This document shows, in pieces, positions 13,037 through 43,806 of a DNA stretch of 55,571 nucleotides (positions are counted from its first letter, which is position 1; the number at the start of each line of letters is the position of its first letter). Source of the DNA: Elusimicrobiota bacterium. GTDB taxonomy: Bacteria > Elusimicrobiota > Endomicrobiia > Endomicrobiales > Endomicrobiaceae. The position numbers were made by a program, and so were the translations under genes. The stretch lies in contig JAITSO010000002.1 of the NCBI GenBank assembly GCA_031287735.1, forward strand, positions 1-55,571. The letters run 5' to 3'. Below the pieces are notes generated by a model, which saw nothing but the letters and a program-made list of their open reading frames with translations, did no database searches and was not told the origin of the DNA.

Positions 13037-13810
13037 CTACAGACAGGAATCAACCGCATTTTGAAATATAAATTTTCCCCAACCGAATTGCTCTTTTGCA
13101 CTCTCTTTTAACGGGTGTTGTAAAGAAAAAATATATCTTTCTGGGTGAGGCATGAGTCCAAAGATGTTCCCTTTTTTATTGCAAATACCGGCAATTTGCT
13201 CAATAGAACCATTTGGGTCTAAAGGATATTGCGGCGTATTTCCATTTCTGTCACAATATCTGAAAACTACTTGGGATTGTTTGTTTAGTTCGTCTAAAAC
13301 ATTTTTATCTTTAGGGATAAATTTTCCCTCGCCATGTGCTATCGGCAAATTTATGACATCAGGCAGATTTTTTGTCCAAAGACAATTAGAATCTTTTTGA
13401 GTTTGCAAATAAATCCAACGGCATTCAAACTTATTGCTGTCATTATGAGAAAGTGTTGTTGTTTGTTCAAAAGTGTGCGGATCAGGCAATAGACCCATTT
13501 TCACTAAAACTTGAAAGCCATTGCAAATTCCAATTATCGGATTTCCATTTATCGCGAATTTTTGCAGAGTATCTTTAAGCTGATATTTTATTTCATTTGC
13601 CAAAATTTTCCCTGAGGCGATATCGTCACCATAGCTAAAACCACCTGGCAAAGCTAAAATGTTATACTCAAAAATTTTATTTTTATCCTCTATCAATTCG
13701 TTTACATGTACTCTGTCTGCCTTAGCTTTACAAAGCTCAAAAGCGACTTGAGTTTCATAATCGCAATTTGTGCCTGCAGTTCGTAAAACTAAAACTTTTA
13801 TTTTTTTCAT
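13037..13810 (-). CDS. purQ: Phosphoribosylformylglycinamidine synthase, glutaminase subunit
   Basis: 257 residues. It is a class I glutamine amidotransferase with nucleophile C96 in GICNGFQ and the catalytic pair H222/E224 in MPHPERYIF. The N-terminal LRTAGTNCD and the ALPGGFSYGDD region are typical of PurQ. It supplies ammonia to PurL in the fourth step of purine synthesis. PurL and PurS are not in the window. The protein is about 30 residues longer than the Bacillus enzyme. purF is at 47389, so the pathway genes are scattered. Confidence 0.92.
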   Translation of the reverse strand: MKKIKVLVLRTAGTNCDYETQVAFELCKAKADRVHVNELIEDKNKIFEYNILALPGGFSYGDDIASGKILANEIKYQLKDTLQKFAINGNPIIGICNGFQVLVKMGLLPDPHTFEQTTTLSHNDSNKFECRWIYLQTQKDSNCLWTKNLPDVINLPIAHGEGKFIPKDKNVLDELNKQSQVVFRYCDRNGNTPQYPLDPNGSIEQIAGICNKKGNIFGLMPHPERYIFSLQHPLKESAKEQFGWGKFIFQNAVDSCL

Positions 13811-34772: not shown

Positions 34773-35849
34773 TCAGTTAACAACTATGCCACCGCCGAGA
34801 ACGGTGCATGCATCATAAAACACAGCGCTTTGTCCAGGAGTTACAGACATCTGGGGATTTTCAAAATCGACACTAGCAGTGTTGTTTTTTTGAACTGTGA
34901 TGAGTGCCATCGCCGGGGGGTGTTGTTGCCGTATTTTTACCTGTGCCTTAATTGGTTTTTTAGGTGCGAGTACAGAAACCCAATTCACGTTTCTGACAAT
35001 GAAAGAACGTGAGTACAAATCTTCTTTACCACCCACCACAACAGTATTATTTTTTTGGGATATTTTTACAACATACAGCGGTTCCTTAAAGCCACCAGAA
35101 AGCCCGAGACCTTTACGCTTTCCTATAGTGTAATTCCAGATTCCAGAATGTTTTCCAAGTACTTTTCCATTTTTGTCTACAATGTTGCCATGTTTTTCAT
35201 TGAACTGCAAAACGTCATTGTAGTTTCCACAATAAAAATCCTGACTATCTGATTTTTCGGCAACAAAAATTCCCGCTATTTTTGCTATATTCCTTACTTC
35301 TGACTTTAAGTAGGTTCCAAGCGGAAAGATAACTTGCGAAAGTATGTCTTGGCTTAACCTATAGAGGAAATAGCTCTGGTCCTTGCTTGCATCAACAGCT
35401 TTTCTTAATTGGTACATTTGCAACGCTTCATTAAGCTCTACATTCGCATAGTGTCCTGTAGCAAACTTGTCAAAAGCAATTCCTTGTTTTCTTGCAACTG
35501 ATGGCAGGATACCAAATTTAATGGCAGCGTTACACCAAATGCATGGATTGGGTGTGCGACCTTCCCTATATTCGTCTCTGAAATCTCCGATTACAATTTT
35601 TTTGTATGCTTCCTTGCAGTCTATTACATGGAATGGAATGTTGAGAAAGTTTGCTATTTTTCGTGCCGATTCTATGTCTTCTTCATCAGGTCCAAAACAA
35701 GTGTTTGCTGATTCATTTGACTTCTTGTATGGCATTGTTGTGTCCCAAATAGACATCATTGCTCCTGAGACACTATATCCTTTTTTTTTTAACAAGTAGG
35801 CGCAAACGGCAGAGTCAACGCCACCACTTAGACCGACTAATACATTCAT
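34773..35849 (-). CDS. mnmA: tRNA-specific 2-thiouridylase
   Basis: 358 residues. The PP-loop LSGGVDSAV at the N-terminus binds ATP. Catalytic cysteines are in PNPCIWCN (about 102) and SQDFYCGNY (about 206). It places the sulfur at position 2 of U34 in tRNA for Lys, Glu and Gln. It lies 28 bases behind tRNA-Thr on the same strand and is probably transcribed together with tRNA-Phe and tRNA-Thr. No sulfur-relay gene is beside it. Confidence 0.96.
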   Translation of the reverse strand: MNVLVGLSGGVDSAVCAYLLKKKGYSVSGAMMSIWDTTMPYKKSNESANTCFGPDEEDIESARKIANFLNIPFHVIDCKEAYKKIVIGDFRDEYREGRTPNPCIWCNAAIKFGILPSVARKQGIAFDKFATGHYANVELNEALQMYQLRKAVDASKDQSYFLYRLSQDILSQVIFPLGTYLKSEVRNIAKIAGIFVAEKSDSQDFYCGNYNDVLQFNEKHGNIVDKNGKVLGKHSGIWNYTIGKRKGLGLSGGFKEPLYVVKISQKNNTVVVGGKEDLYSRSFIVRNVNWVSVLAPKKPIKAQVKIRQQHPPAMALITVQKNNTASVDFENPQMSVTPGQSAVFYDACTVLGGGIVVN

Positions 35850-35876: not shown

Positions 35877-35949
35877 AGCCGACGATAGGACTTGAACCTA
35901 CGACCAATTGCTTACGAAGCAATTGCTCTACCAACTGAGCTACGTCGGC
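35877..35949 (-). tRNA. tRNA-Thr(CGU)
   Basis: A complete cloverleaf on the minus strand: acceptor GCCGACG pairing with CGTCGGC, D arm GCTCAGTTGGTAGAGC, anticodon loop TTCGTAA (anticodon CGU), T-loop TTCAAGT. CCA is not encoded. It is 15 bases after tRNA-Phe and 28 before mnmA. Confidence 0.95.
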
Positions 35950-35964
35950 AACGAAACAAAGAAA

Positions 35965-36037
35965 TGCCGAGGGGCAGAATCGAACTGCCGACACACGGTT
36001 TTTCAGACCGTTGCTCTACCGACTGAGCTACCTCGGC
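35965..36037 (-). tRNA. tRNA-Phe(GAA)
   Basis: A complete cloverleaf on the minus strand: acceptor GCCGAGG with CCTCGGC, D arm GCTCAGTCGGTAGAGC, anticodon stem ACGGT/ACCGT with loop CTGAAAA (anticodon GAA), T-loop TTCGATT and discriminator A. CCA is not encoded. It is first of a tRNA-Phe, tRNA-Thr, mnmA unit. Confidence 0.96.
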
Positions 36038-36355
36038 ACTAAACAACCCGACTATGCTACCAAGATGATTCACCATGCGTGAACTAAGCAAAGAACAAGT
36101 CGACGTTAATTGTTTTTGTGCAGCAAGCTACATCTTTAATAAACAAAAAAAAATTTAAAAAACACAGCTGACAGCAGCTTAATGTTGCTGTTTTTGGTTT
36201 TCAGCAATAACTCTTTTTGTCAAATACTTTCCTGTTTCGCAATATTTTCAGCAAATTTTGTTCCAAGAGTACGAAGCTTTATGTTACCACAAAACACATA
36301 ATTTTTCTACAATTTTTTTGGCTAAAAATTTTTTGTGCTTACGCAAAAGCCTGCG
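36038..36355. other. 318-base stretch without a gene between tRNA-Phe and atpC
   Basis: No convincing coding frame. It should contain the promoter of the tRNA pair at its left end (a weak TTCACG and TAGCAT pair on the minus strand is possible) and the end of the atpC transcript at the right. After the atpC stop is a small stem (ACGCA and TGCGT, six-base loop) followed by A and T runs. A second small stem lies near 36173-36200 with T-runs. None is strong. Confidence 0.4.
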
Positions 36356-36775
36356 TCATCTTACATTTTTTTTAATACTTATTCCAGACCTTAAAGATGA
36401 TACTGAGTTTTTTAATTGGGTTTCTACCGACGAAACCACGATAAACTCCTTTCTTTTCTTCTTTATTTCCTTAGCAAGGTCTATCGCCCGATCAATTTTA
36501 TTGTTATTTGCTTCGTCAGACTGAATAGCAAACTCTGCTACAATATTTACATTGTTTTTTGAGATTTCTATAAAACCACCTACTACAGATATCTTTTTTT
36601 GTAAACCGTTGGACAGGTTAATTATTATTTCTCCATTGCCAAGTTTCGAGACTAAATTTAGGTGCCCAGCAAAAATTCCAATTGTGCCACTTATAGTGGG
36701 AAAAGAAGCGTATTCTACTTTTTCTTTAAAAATCAACCCTTCAGGAGATAAAATTTCGAGATTAAATTTTTTCAC
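36356..36775 (-). CDS. atpC: F1 ATP synthase epsilon subunit, separated from the rest of the complex
   Basis: 139 residues from a GTG at 36775 with an AGAGG site upstream. The frame is open 24 codons further, but that part is tRNA-Pro and its spacer. The N-terminal beta-barrel is recognisable by FNLEILSPEGLIFKEKVEYASFPTISGTIGIFAGH, close to the family pattern that ends in G-H-x-x-x-x. It is followed by NGEIIINL and the GGFIEISKNNVNIVAE strand pair, then two C-terminal helices. Normally atpC ends the ATP synthase operon directly behind atpD. Here the upstream neighbours are tRNA-Pro and merR, so it is detached. Alternatively it could serve a second or divergent ATPase; the other subunits are not in the window. 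Confidence 0.88.
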   Translation of the reverse strand: MKKFNLEILSPEGLIFKEKVEYASFPTISGTIGIFAGHLNLVSKLGNGEIIINLSNGLQKKISVVGGFIEISKNNVNIVAEFAIQSDEANNNKIDRAIDLAKEIKKKRKEFIVVSSVETQLKNSVSSLRSGISIKKNVR

Positions 36776-36810
36776 ATTGGTGCCTCTTTTGTTGGGATTT
36801 TTATTACCTA

Positions 36811-36884
36811 TCGGGGCGACTGGACTTGAACCAGCGACCTCTCCCACCCCAAGGGAGTGCGCTAGCCAACTGCGCTACGCCCCG
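36811..36884 (-). tRNA. tRNA-Pro(GGG)
   Basis: A complete cloverleaf on the minus strand, 74 bases: acceptor CGGGGCG with CGCCCCG, D arm GCGCAGTTGGCTAGCGC, anticodon stem CTCCC/GGGAG with loop TTGGGGT (anticodon GGG), T-loop TTCAAGT and discriminator A. It lies 52 bases after merR and 35 before atpC, inside one minus-strand run. Confidence 0.96.
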
Positions 36885-36936
36885 ATTTTGCTAGAACGAA
36901 TGCTAACGAGCTTGGATACGCCTAGCTTATGCTGCA

Positions 36937-37284
36937 CTACAATTTTTCTAAAAGCTCTAAAATCCCACTGATTTCTCTTTTAATTACTTTTAATAGATTG
37001 GTCTCTATAAAAACTTCGGGGGATAGAGGATAATCATTGTTTTTTTTATTTTTGCCTGCTTTTAGGTACTTTTTTACGCCTTCAATTCTTATCTTTTTAC
37101 TATAAAGCAAATCCTTGATTTTAAAAACAAGCTCCTCGTCTTTTTCATCATAAATCCTTTGTCCAGAACTCTTCCTTACAGGAAACAAAAGCTTCTCATT
37201 TTCCCAATACCTCAAAGTGTAACCGGGAACATCCGTGTTTCTGGACAATTGACCTATGGTAAAGTATTTTTTAGATTCAGACAT
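36937..37284 (-). CDS. MerR-type transcriptional regulator
   Basis: 115 residues. The winged-helix DNA-binding region is at 7-75: YFTIGQLSRNTDVPGYTLRY, then WENEKLLFPVRKSSGQRIYD, typical of the class that reads W-E-x-E at the second helix. The C-terminal helix is short and holds no cysteine metal site. It overlaps the IHF-like gene by eight bases. The same ihf-merR-tRNA-Pro order is known, as I recall, from proteobacteria such as Pseudomonas. The regulated genes are unknown. Confidence 0.93.
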   Translation of the reverse strand: MSESKKYFTIGQLSRNTDVPGYTLRYWENEKLLFPVRKSSGQRIYDEKDEELVFKIKDLLYSKKIRIEGVKKYLKAGKNKKNNDYPLSPEVFIETNLLKVIKREISGILELLEKL

Positions 37285-37591
37285 TTGAACTATTTTCTTC
37301 TAAAAAGTTATTAGATTGCTTAAACCTTATTTTTTTCATTGGAGGAATTAAAAGTTTCTCGCCAGTTTTTGGGTTTCTGCCTCTTTTAACTTTTGTGTCA
37401 AAACTTTCAAAGCTTCCAAGTCCTTTTATAACAACTTTCTTAAAACCATTTCTTAATGTGGATATCATTTCGTCAAAAATTTTATTGACTATGACAGATG
37501 CCTCTTTTTTAGATGTTAATAAATGTTCCTCTAATAAAATATCCGACAATTTATCTTTAGTTAAATTTTTCGGTTCATAGCTTTTACTCAT
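37277..37591 (-). CDS. Integration host factor / HU-like DNA-binding protein
   Basis: 104 residues, close to IHF-alpha length. The N-terminal helices (KDKLSDILLEEHLLTSKKEASVIV) are followed by the beta arm with GRNPKTGEKLLIP, where the proline that wedges into DNA is expected, and the preceding GLGSFESFDTKVKRGRNP strand. Its neighbour merR and the tRNA-Pro context favour the IHF-alpha branch, but whether it works as a homodimer or with a partner is not visible. It overlaps the end of gpsA by eight bases. Confidence 0.92.
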   Translation of the reverse strand: MSKSYEPKNLTKDKLSDILLEEHLLTSKKEASVIVNKIFDEMISTLRNGFKKVVIKGLGSFESFDTKVKRGRNPKTGEKLLIPPMKKIRFKQSNNFLEENSSNV

Positions 37592-38576
37592 ATTTTGGAT
37601 CCCTAGTCATTAAATCATTTAAAGCTTTGAGGGGGTCTTTTCGTTCAAATAAAATTTTGTAGGTTTCATTTATTATTGGCAGTTCTACATTTATTTTTTT
37701 TCCTATTTCATAGGCGCTTATTGTATTCCTTACGCCTTCTGCTACTACTCCAAGATTGTTTTCCGCTTCTTCTAAGCTTTTTCCTTCGCCTACGGCTTGT
37801 CCGACGGAACGATTCCTGGAATGTTTTGAAAAACAAGTTACCATAAGGTCGCCAGCACCGGAAAGTCCATAAAAGGTTTCTCTATTCGCTCCAAGTTCAG
37901 AGCCAACTTTTGCGAGCTCTTTAAGACCTCTTGCGACCACCAAAGCTTTTGTGTTATCACCGAGTTTTAGACCATCAACAATCCCTGAAGCAATGGCAAA
38001 AACATTTTTCAATGCACCTCCGATTTCAACGCCTACAATATCGCAATTGGTGTAAACTCTAAAGTAATCATTCATAAAAACATCTCTTGCTTTTTTAGAA
38101 ATTTCAGCATTTATAGAGGCTGAAACTACAGCAGTAGGGACCTTTACACAAACTTCTTCGGCATGGCTTGGCCCAGATAAAACAGCAATGTTTTTATACG
38201 AACCTTCAAAAACATCGTCTATTACTTCGCTCATACGCAGTAAGGTTTTATTCTCAATACCTTTTGTGGCGCTGACTATAAGTTTTTTGTTGAGTGAGAT
38301 TCCTTTGTTTTTTAGGAATTCGCAAGTTGACCTGATGTGTTGAGATGGGACGGCGAACAAAATTGACTCACTACGTGCAACATTTTCTAAACTATTTGTA
38401 ATAAGTAAATTCGGCGGCAAATCTGCCCCGCCTGCAAAGGGTCTCATTTTTCTATCCTGCAGGGCTTGTGCTCTTTCGGGGTCGAATTCCCATACGACAG
38501 TATCGTTACCGTTTTCAAGCAGAAGTGCAGCAAGTGTTACACCCCAAGAACCTGCTCCAAGTACTGCAATTTTCAT
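37584..38576 (-). CDS. gpsA: Glycerol-3-phosphate dehydrogenase [NAD(P)+]
   Basis: 330 residues. LGAGSWGVTLAALL is the nucleotide-binding Rossmann motif, followed by AVPSQHIRS and LSGPSHAEEV. The catalytic lysine lies in GALKNVFAIASGIVDGL, and GAGDLMVTCFS is the conserved C-domain segment. It reduces dihydroxyacetone phosphate to sn-glycerol 3-phosphate for phospholipids. It is first in the unit gpsA-ihf-merR-tRNA-Pro-atpC, with a promoter at 38613-38641. Confidence 0.96.
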   Translation of the reverse strand: MKIAVLGAGSWGVTLAALLLENGNDTVVWEFDPERAQALQDRKMRPFAGGADLPPNLLITNSLENVARSESILFAVPSQHIRSTCEFLKNKGISLNKKLIVSATKGIENKTLLRMSEVIDDVFEGSYKNIAVLSGPSHAEEVCVKVPTAVVSASINAEISKKARDVFMNDYFRVYTNCDIVGVEIGGALKNVFAIASGIVDGLKLGDNTKALVVARGLKELAKVGSELGANRETFYGLSGAGDLMVTCFSKHSRNRSVGQAVGEGKSLEEAENNLGVVAEGVRNTISAYEIGKKINVELPIINETYKILFERKDPLKALNDLMTRDPKYE

Positions 38577-38612: not shown

Positions 38613-38641
38613 ATTCTACTTTATTGAAATTTTAATGTAAA
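38613..38641 (-). promoter_or_regulatory. Promoter of the gpsA unit
   Basis: On the minus strand, a -35 TTTACA (38636-38641), 17-base spacer and -10 TAGAAT (38613-38618), again preceded by ATAAAG. The leader is about 30 bases. It is nearly identical to the cimA promoter. Confidence 0.7.
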
Positions 38642-42351: not shown

Positions 42352-43806
42352 ATGTTTAATTACGAAACAGTTGTTGGACTTGAAGTTCATATGCAGATAA
42401 ACACTAAATCAAAAGTTTTTTGCGAATGCTCTACGGAGTTTGGAGCAGAACCAAACACAAACATTTGTGTAATTTGCACATCTCAACCCGGTACAATCCC
42501 TATCCTAAACAAAAAAGCTGTTGAAGCTATTGTAAAAACAGGTCTTGCCTTGAATTTCACAATAAACAAGCAATGCACTTTTGCAAGAAAACAGTATTTT
42601 TACCCTGATGTGCCTAAGAATTACCAGATAACGCAGTCTGAACCTCCCTTATGTTCAAAGGGAAAACTCAAGATTTACATAGATGGAAAAGAAAAAATCG
42701 TGAATCTTGCAAGAATTCACCTTGAAGAAGATGCGGGAAAGCTAGTTCATGAAATAGGGAATAGGAAATTAGACTACTCTCTATTAGATTTAAACAGGGC
42801 AAGTGTTGGACTTATGGAACTTGTTACTGAGCCGGAACTGTCTTCACCTCAAGAAGCATTGGAATTTTTAAATGAATTAAAAACTATCGTTGAATATCTT
42901 GGAACTTCTCAGTGCAGTATGGAAGAGGGAAAAATGCGTTGCGATGTCAATGTTAGCGTGCGGTCTGCCGGGCAAAAAGAGTTGGGAACGAGAATAGAGA
43001 TAAAAAATATGAATTCTATCTCAGGCGTTAGAGATGCGATAGCTTATGAAGTTGAAAGGCAAATAGAAGTTTTAAATTCCGGTGGTAAACTTATTCAGGA
43101 AACGAGGCTTTGGGAAGCGGAAGAAGGAATAACGAAATCTATGAGAACAAAAGAAGGAGCTTTAGATTACAGATATTTCCCGGAACCAGATTTAGTTCCT
43201 TTTGAACTGTCCGATTCTTTTATTGAAGATTTAAAAAAAGATATTCCCGAACTTCCAATGATGAGAAAACAAAGGCTTATAGATGATTATGCTTTGTCAG
43301 ATTATGATGCTGGTTATTTAACTTCAAAAAGAGAAATAGCAGATTTTTATGAGGAAAGTTTAGGTTTTACAAAAGATAAAAAAATTTGTGCCAAATCTTT
43401 GTCAAATTGGCTGTCAACAGAGCTTAATGGAAAATTGAATGCAGATAAAAAAGAAATTTCACAATCGCCAGTGTCTTCTCAAAGTTTAGCGAAACTTGTT
43501 AATCTAATAATTGACGGTAAAATTTCTGGTAAAATAGCAAAAATCGTTTTTGAAGATATGTATTTGAAGTCACTTGATCCTGAAATTGTAGTCAAAGAAA
43601 AAGGTCTTGCACAAATATCAGATGAGGGTGAACTTGCAAAAATTTGTCAAGAAGCCATAAATGAAAGTCCTAAAGTTGTTGAAGAATTTAAAGCTGGAAA
43701 AGAAAGGGCGATAGGTGCTATTGTTGGACTTGTTATGAAAAAATCAAAAGGACAGGCTAACCCTGGTCTTGCTAACAAAATTATATTGGAAAAATTGAAA
43801 AATTAG
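42352..43806 (+). CDS. gatB: Asp/Glu-tRNA amidotransferase subunit B
   Basis: 484 residues, full length. [19 protein letters not shown] opens the kinase-like cradle domain. The zinc-binding cysteines appear as CECS and CVIC, around residues 24-45. [11 protein letters not shown] and [22 protein letters not shown] are conserved, and the C-terminal helical YqeY-like domain (about 330-484) ends with KKSKGQANP. With GatA and GatC it amidates misacylated Glu-tRNA-Gln and Asp-tRNA-Asn. Those subunits are not in the window. The next gene starts 12 bases after the stop codon. Confidence 0.97.

Follow-up and report, generated by a model that had tools for sequence, protein, structure and literature searches.

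The gene for the epsilon subunit, atpC, is normally the last gene of the ATP synthase operon, itself a textbook case in which the order of the genes serves assembly and keeps subunit ratios fixed. Why, then, does a gut bacterium of the family Endomicrobiaceae (Elusimicrobiota), with a small genome, carry atpC behind a tRNA-Pro gene, in a unit headed by gpsA? The window, by which we mean the whole 55,571-nucleotide stretch of DNA analyzed here (assembly GCA_031287735.1, contig JAITSO010000002.1), had been described from its letters alone. That preliminary description proposed that epsilon, having been moved out of the operon, could be decoupled in amount from the rest of the enzyme, and that atpC in a reduced genome might also be a lone survivor.

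The atpC gene and its setting

The product of atpC matches PF02823 over all 80 positions (1-80) at 73 bits against a cut-off of 27, and it matches the TIGR01216 equivalog model over positions 2-127 of 130 at 82.4 bits against a cut-off of 67.25; atpC is a real gene. Solved epsilon chains (including 2e5y) align in sequence with residues 1-127, across the sandwich and the helical part, and AtpC is predicted to comprise the full N-terminal beta-sandwich and the C-terminal helical part. The motif AAGAGG, which resembles a ribosome-binding site, lies directly before the inner GTG. A longer open reading frame (36356-36847), also with a GTG start, overlaps tRNA-Pro and is thus unlikely to mark the start of atpC.

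The span singled out in the preliminary description (36356-36884) consists of atpC and tRNA-Pro, and its account of the setting was borne out: atpC has a GTG start, follows tRNA-Pro at a distance of 34 bases (35 had been given), and belongs to a unit headed by gpsA, with gpsA, an IHF/HU-like gene, and a merR-like gene all upstream on the minus strand (Table 1). The promoter-like site before gpsA is the likely start of a putative transcript ending with atpC. Promoter-like sites in this region of the window numbered 15 against 7.6 expected, and terminator-like hairpins in the atpC region numbered 2 against 2.0 expected from shuffles.

Table 1. Positions of the atpC neighborhood in the window and of related loci in the same assembly
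Feature	Contig or locus	Coordinates	Strand	Remark
purQ	C37 (window)	13037-13810
mnmA, tRNA 2-thiouridine synthase	C37 (window)	34773..35849	-	27 bases behind tRNA-Thr
tRNA-Thr(CGT)	C37 (window)	35877..35949	-
tRNA-Phe(GAA)	C37 (window)	35964..36038	-	next downstream gene after atpC
Weak terminator-like hairpin and T run	C37 (window)	36166..36179	-	between atpC and tRNA-Phe
atpC (F1 epsilon subunit)	C37 (window)	36356..36775	-	139 aa, GTG start; sole copy found in assembly
tRNA-Pro(GGG)	C37 (window)	36810..36885	-	upstream of atpC by 34 bases
MerR-like regulator gene	C37 (window)	36937..37284	-	belongs to gpsA-ihf-merR-tRNA-Pro block present in relatives
IHF/HU-like DNA-binding protein gene	C37 (window)	37277..37591	-	PF00216
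gpsA, NAD(P)H-dependent glycerol-3-phosphate dehydrogenase	C37 (window)	37584..38576	-	heads unit
Promoter-like TTTACA-17-TAGAAT	C37 (window)	38613..38641	-	before gpsA; consensus match only, 10/12
gatB	C37 (window)	42352-43806
a-c-b-delta	C27, L040	2322-4216
delta	C27, L040	2322-2684		within a-c-b-delta
alpha	C48, L034	7278-8807
gamma	C54, L039	9557-10408
beta	C15, L035	12980-14389
Repeat block behind accB	L035	12308-12470		within L035:11895-12470
purS-like	C15, L035	14517-14969
purC	C31, L126	7748-8659
gatA	L130	9304-10851

The same neighborhood recurs in the family. A search of 24 same-family genomes yielded 19 loci, and tRNA-Pro stands directly behind merR in 16 of them (anticodon GGG in 13, CGG in 3); ARAGORN found no tRNA-Pro behind merR in the other three (G002, G010, and G020). 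Within the stretches seen, atpC follows the merR-adjacent tRNA-Pro only in the window genome.

Five ATP synthase loci and the intact clusters of relatives

Family searches of the whole assembly returned single matches for epsilon, gamma, a, delta, and c, and PF02823 thus revealed no second atpC. PF00006 gave three matches, reading as alpha, beta, and rho. The assembly yielded no further PF00006 protein and hence no V-type ATPase catalytic pair. Scores for alpha, beta, gamma, and c lie above the NCBIfam cut-offs. Subunit a falls below that of TIGR01131 (93.6 versus 102.6) and exceeds that of PF00119; subunit b is the open reading frame between c and delta, just below the TIGR01144 cut-off (64.1 versus 65.5); and delta is below the NCBIfam cut-offs and above that of PF00213 (24.9 versus 22.3). 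Since all of the other subunits are encoded, the suggestion that atpC is a lone survivor is refuted, and epsilon may serve here as the part that regulates rotation of a complete F1Fo enzyme.

These genes occupy five loci, with the cuts at delta/alpha, alpha/gamma, gamma/beta, and beta/epsilon, or four of the seven joints. No locus comes closer than 2.3 kb to a contig end, the shortest distance being that of the delta end on C27. As in other split loci, all core subunits are encoded and no single cluster holds them; beta and epsilon do not adjoin as they do at the close of a standard operon, and an accB-like gene stands behind atpD in the place of atpC. Beta is flanked by this gene and a purS-like gene, and gamma by a two-component system (from kinase models) and by fabF-acp (named by reading). 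Alpha lies 34 bases behind tRNA-Glu(CTC), the same spacing as that of epsilon behind tRNA-Pro. The detachment of atpC, with the other subunits on other contigs, is thus confirmed. The picture of an epsilon gene moved out of an operon is only half right, as the operon was not left intact: alpha, gamma, and beta are each detached too, and only a-c-b-delta are still joined. A special decoupling of epsilon is therefore not indicated.

Delta itself (OSCP) is short throughout the family. Among 36 same-family genomes searched, the window genome included, 14 had a PF00213 match, with frames of 118-123 residues in 13 and of 144 in one; these matches begin at profile position 35 of 172 or later. In three genomes of the same order delta has 179-192 residues. 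The N-terminal part of delta binds alpha, and this part may be reduced in Endomicrobiaceae.

We searched 35 other Endomicrobiaceae genomes, and in 28 of them a, c, alpha, gamma, beta, and epsilon share one contig. All 28 of these clusters, when fetched, read a-c-b-delta-alpha-gamma-beta-epsilon on one strand, with beta and epsilon side by side at the end. In the other seven (G011, G014, G015, G019, G021, G032, and G034) the pieces lie on two contigs or are missing, and by their coordinates the genes beside the gaps are apparently cut off or near contig ends. Three outgroups from the same order were included; one has the identical gene order, and two had no delta match at E 1. In a FastTree phylogeny built from a concatenation of a, alpha, gamma, beta, and epsilon, the window genome and the six genomes of its sister genus, g7, form one group (support 0.994) that falls inside the family. 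As the window genome is nested among relatives with intact clusters, the intact cluster is ancestral and the scattering derived. The six g7 genomes are only 1.0-1.3 Mb in size and all keep the cluster whole; small genome size alone therefore does not break it, which leaves the reduced genome invoked earlier a poor cause.

Endomicrobium proavitum Rsa215, with a chromosome of 1,588,979 bases (PMC4505116), offers a close comparison. It belongs to the same family and has the same subunits encoded by orthologous genes (epsilon 56% and beta 89% identical), but its atp genes form one cluster of about 6 kb, followed by genes reading as yebC and as ruvC, ruvA, and ruvB (named by reading). For epsilon, identity to E. 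proavitum and to three of the g7 genomes is 54-57%, and to seven other relatives it is 40-53%; across these 11 relatives beta is 76-89% identical.

Several side observations concern the relatives. A tRNA-Ala(CGC) gene lies upstream of subunit a in 6 of the 28 intact clusters (L046, L047, L221, L222, L227, and L229), its end 42, 47, 71, 144, 335, or 399 bases from the matched start of a. Of 11 loci scanned in relatives, 4 carry tRNA-Phe and tRNA-Thr on the upstream side of the intact atp cluster. G007 (C101) and G041 (C63) have a PF00006 pair of about 430-445 and 590-600 residues, like a V/A-type ATPase in size and pairing; G041 had no epsilon or gamma match.

How the cluster probably came apart

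The explanation that we regard as probable is that an ancestral atp cluster was cut at four joints by rearrangement into five units, and that this breakup was near-neutral rather than an adaptation of epsilon dosage. The ancestor would have possessed an ordinary F-ATPase cluster, a-c-b-delta-alpha-gamma-beta-epsilon, and chromosomal rearrangements in the window lineage would have made the four cuts, each fragment surviving by falling under a working promoter. Epsilon would be expressed by read-through from gpsA-ihf-merR-tRNA-Pro, the 5' end of its mRNA presumably a product of tRNA 3' processing, and alpha would be expressed from the tRNA-Glu promoter; such processing would leave 34-base leaders on both atpA and atpC. 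Gamma may have been rescued by a copied promoter (alternatively, a-c-b-delta received the copy), and beta probably has its own promoter, with accB carried behind. We infer these promoter and read-through steps from the arrangement of the genes. The enzyme would then be assembled from five mRNAs, with epsilon keeping its normal role.

Other gene clusters are broken in this genome as well. The accB-like gene behind atpD on C15 has BCCP as its best model (84 bits, below the cut-off of 115), and accB is followed by a frame of 437-473 residues in all 29 of the relatives' loci fetched. In the window genome, accC lies on C44 beside other genes; it was found with a relative's frame (L083) as query, at 82% identity, and its identity is supported by a model. 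The purQ, purS-like, and purC genes lie on three contigs, while in E. proavitum their best matches lie no more than about 5 kb apart, and gatB is apart from gatA, whose frames adjoin in E. proavitum. We examined conserved gene pairs (same strand, no more than 100 bases apart, identity at least 40%, atp genes excluded) from 400 kb of E. proavitum, testing both directions of each pair, so that the tests are not independent. With lost partners counted as broken, 37 of 83 tests were positive in the window genome, versus 41/58 in G023, 63/72 in G012, and 29/45 in G010; where the partner was seen in the sample, the figures were 37/52 here versus 41/44, 63/63, and 29/37, respectively. G010, the most distant sample, retains its pairs only modestly better than does the window genome.

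A dispersed, self-complementary palindromic repeat may have contributed. It has 47 hits on both strands (seed included) in 431 kb of the window genome, which we merged into 14 blocks, and none in the samples of three relatives. Copies lie at several contig ends, and one block stops some 50 bases behind accB, at the position expected for accC. The accB end of this one unit is the only place where the repeat touches an atp unit; no copy turned up at the junctions of epsilon, alpha, gamma, or a-c-b-delta. The repeats are a possible cause of the breakup, and a near-neutral course, aided by repeat-driven rearrangement and unrelated to the dosage of epsilon, seems most likely.

Gamma and a are both preceded by the same 26-base promoter core with a perfect TATAAT, and by TTGA-type -35 boxes at a spacing of 16. 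A 20-base part of it, with up to three mismatches allowed, has two hits in the 1.357-Mb assembly, both before atp units, whereas its reversed control has none. We compared 322 upstream regions in a 32% sample of the window genome (51,681 pairs), and the 26-base word is the longest shared outside repeat blocks, the next being 16 bases; one other pair shares 26 bases and one 17, both inside dispersed-repeat blocks. The region before a in 18 relatives bears no recognizable resemblance to the core (best 17-21 of 36 positions), and the promoter therefore looks new in the window lineage and afterwards copied. The beta unit has a promoter-like site, TTGAGT-16-TATACT. Comparison by eye gave no grounds to claim a promoter shared with the beta unit or with tRNA-Glu. 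Promoter-like sites are near chance in number (7 found versus 8.3 expected in the beta region and 9 versus 9.2 in the alpha region); the counts are 6 versus 4.5 in the gamma region and 5 versus 7.9 in the a region.

It is possible, if doubtful, that coordinated expression was re-created after the breakup, by the copied promoter for gamma and a-c-b-delta and by the placement of alpha and epsilon 34 bases behind tRNAs. Were this true, tRNA processing would yield the ends of the alpha and epsilon mRNAs, and balanced assembly would have been kept as a distributed regulon.

The copied core could also stem from duplication of the whole cluster followed by complementary loss, a history that would account for gamma's copy of the a-c-b-delta promoter. 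In its favor are the identical core itself, the lack of a third site with the 20-base part, and the absence of a recognizable core in the 18 relatives. Against it, tblastn at E 5 over the five loci and the rest of the 32% sample, with subunits other than c as queries, found no decayed atp copies: beyond the atp genes and cross-matches among alpha, beta, and rho, there were only weak matches with E of at least 0.04. A short insertion or gene conversion explains the promoter copy equally well, and we hold duplication to be unlikely.

The tRNA genes raise the question of selection for separate control, in which epsilon, along with alpha, would stand behind tRNAs so that its supply tracks growth-linked transcription of stable RNAs, not the other subunits. 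In two of the five atp units a tRNA ends 34 bases before the first atp gene, compared with 7 of 352 open reading frames just behind a tRNA in the 32% sample (0/324, 1/348, and 2/312 in samples of three relatives), where a frame behind two overlapping or neighboring tRNAs counts as one; the tRNA-Ala upstream of a in six intact clusters points the same way. This count was made post hoc, however, and mnmA and other genes also lie behind tRNAs. Alpha, moreover, is present in three copies per enzyme and epsilon in one, and alpha nevertheless sits just as epsilon does, so that epsilon is not singled out. Separate control appears to us improbable, and the near-neutral breakup remains the preferred reading.

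That the five pieces are misjoined or belong to different organisms is highly unlikely. The assembly does consist of 60 contigs, with repeats at several contig ends, but all five pieces are interior to contigs, the block gpsA-ihf-merR-tRNA-Pro beside epsilon is that of the relatives, the subunits are single copies with the range of identities given above (40-57% for epsilon), and completeness is 99.98% with 0.02% contamination; an artifact would call for several misjoins, each independent and each falling at a gene border. Least credible of all is that epsilon was acquired from elsewhere, or that the scattering goes far back and other lineages parted with the usual cluster on their own: the set searched included no second genome of the same genus, but the identities to relatives look as expected under vertical descent, and the concatenated tree places the genome inside the family, beside genomes with intact clusters.

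Split ATP synthase loci and subunit balance

Split F-ATPase loci are known from Aquificae and Beggiatoa, where the cuts fall at gamma/beta, beta/epsilon, and alpha/gamma (Koumandou and Kossida 2014, PMC4154653, in the parts covering these groups). All three cuts are common to the window genome, and since the beta/epsilon cut is published, a detached epsilon gene is not new. Going by the same parts of that paper, Aquificae have further cuts at c/b and I/a, whereas the window genome keeps a-c-b-delta together on C27; it also has a delta/alpha cut, intact clusters in the relatives examined, a copied promoter shared by two units, and two units behind tRNAs. The two-cluster F-ATPase of cyanobacteria, as presented there, resembles the window genome in its gamma/beta cut, which separates beta-epsilon from the remaining genes; no beta/epsilon cut is given for cyanobacteria, and in the window genome these two genes are apart. 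Among the papers listed in searches on the Endomicrobium and Elusimicrobia ATP synthase and on split operons, none was seen to report such scattering; in the parts of PMC11257099 consulted, the terms ATP synthase, ATPase, synteny, and operon do not occur, and none of five such terms occurs in PMC8809381. As far as the listed papers show, the novelty lies in the lineage, in four such cuts occurring together, in near relatives whose clusters are intact, and in the copied promoter.

With four of seven joints cut in one genome and the cluster whole in its near relatives, this lineage provides a direct test of whether subunit balance needs an operon. The window genome also lets one ask whether promoters get copied as a replacement for the operon, and so offers a test set by nature of how a cell balances the components of a single machine when no operon joins them.
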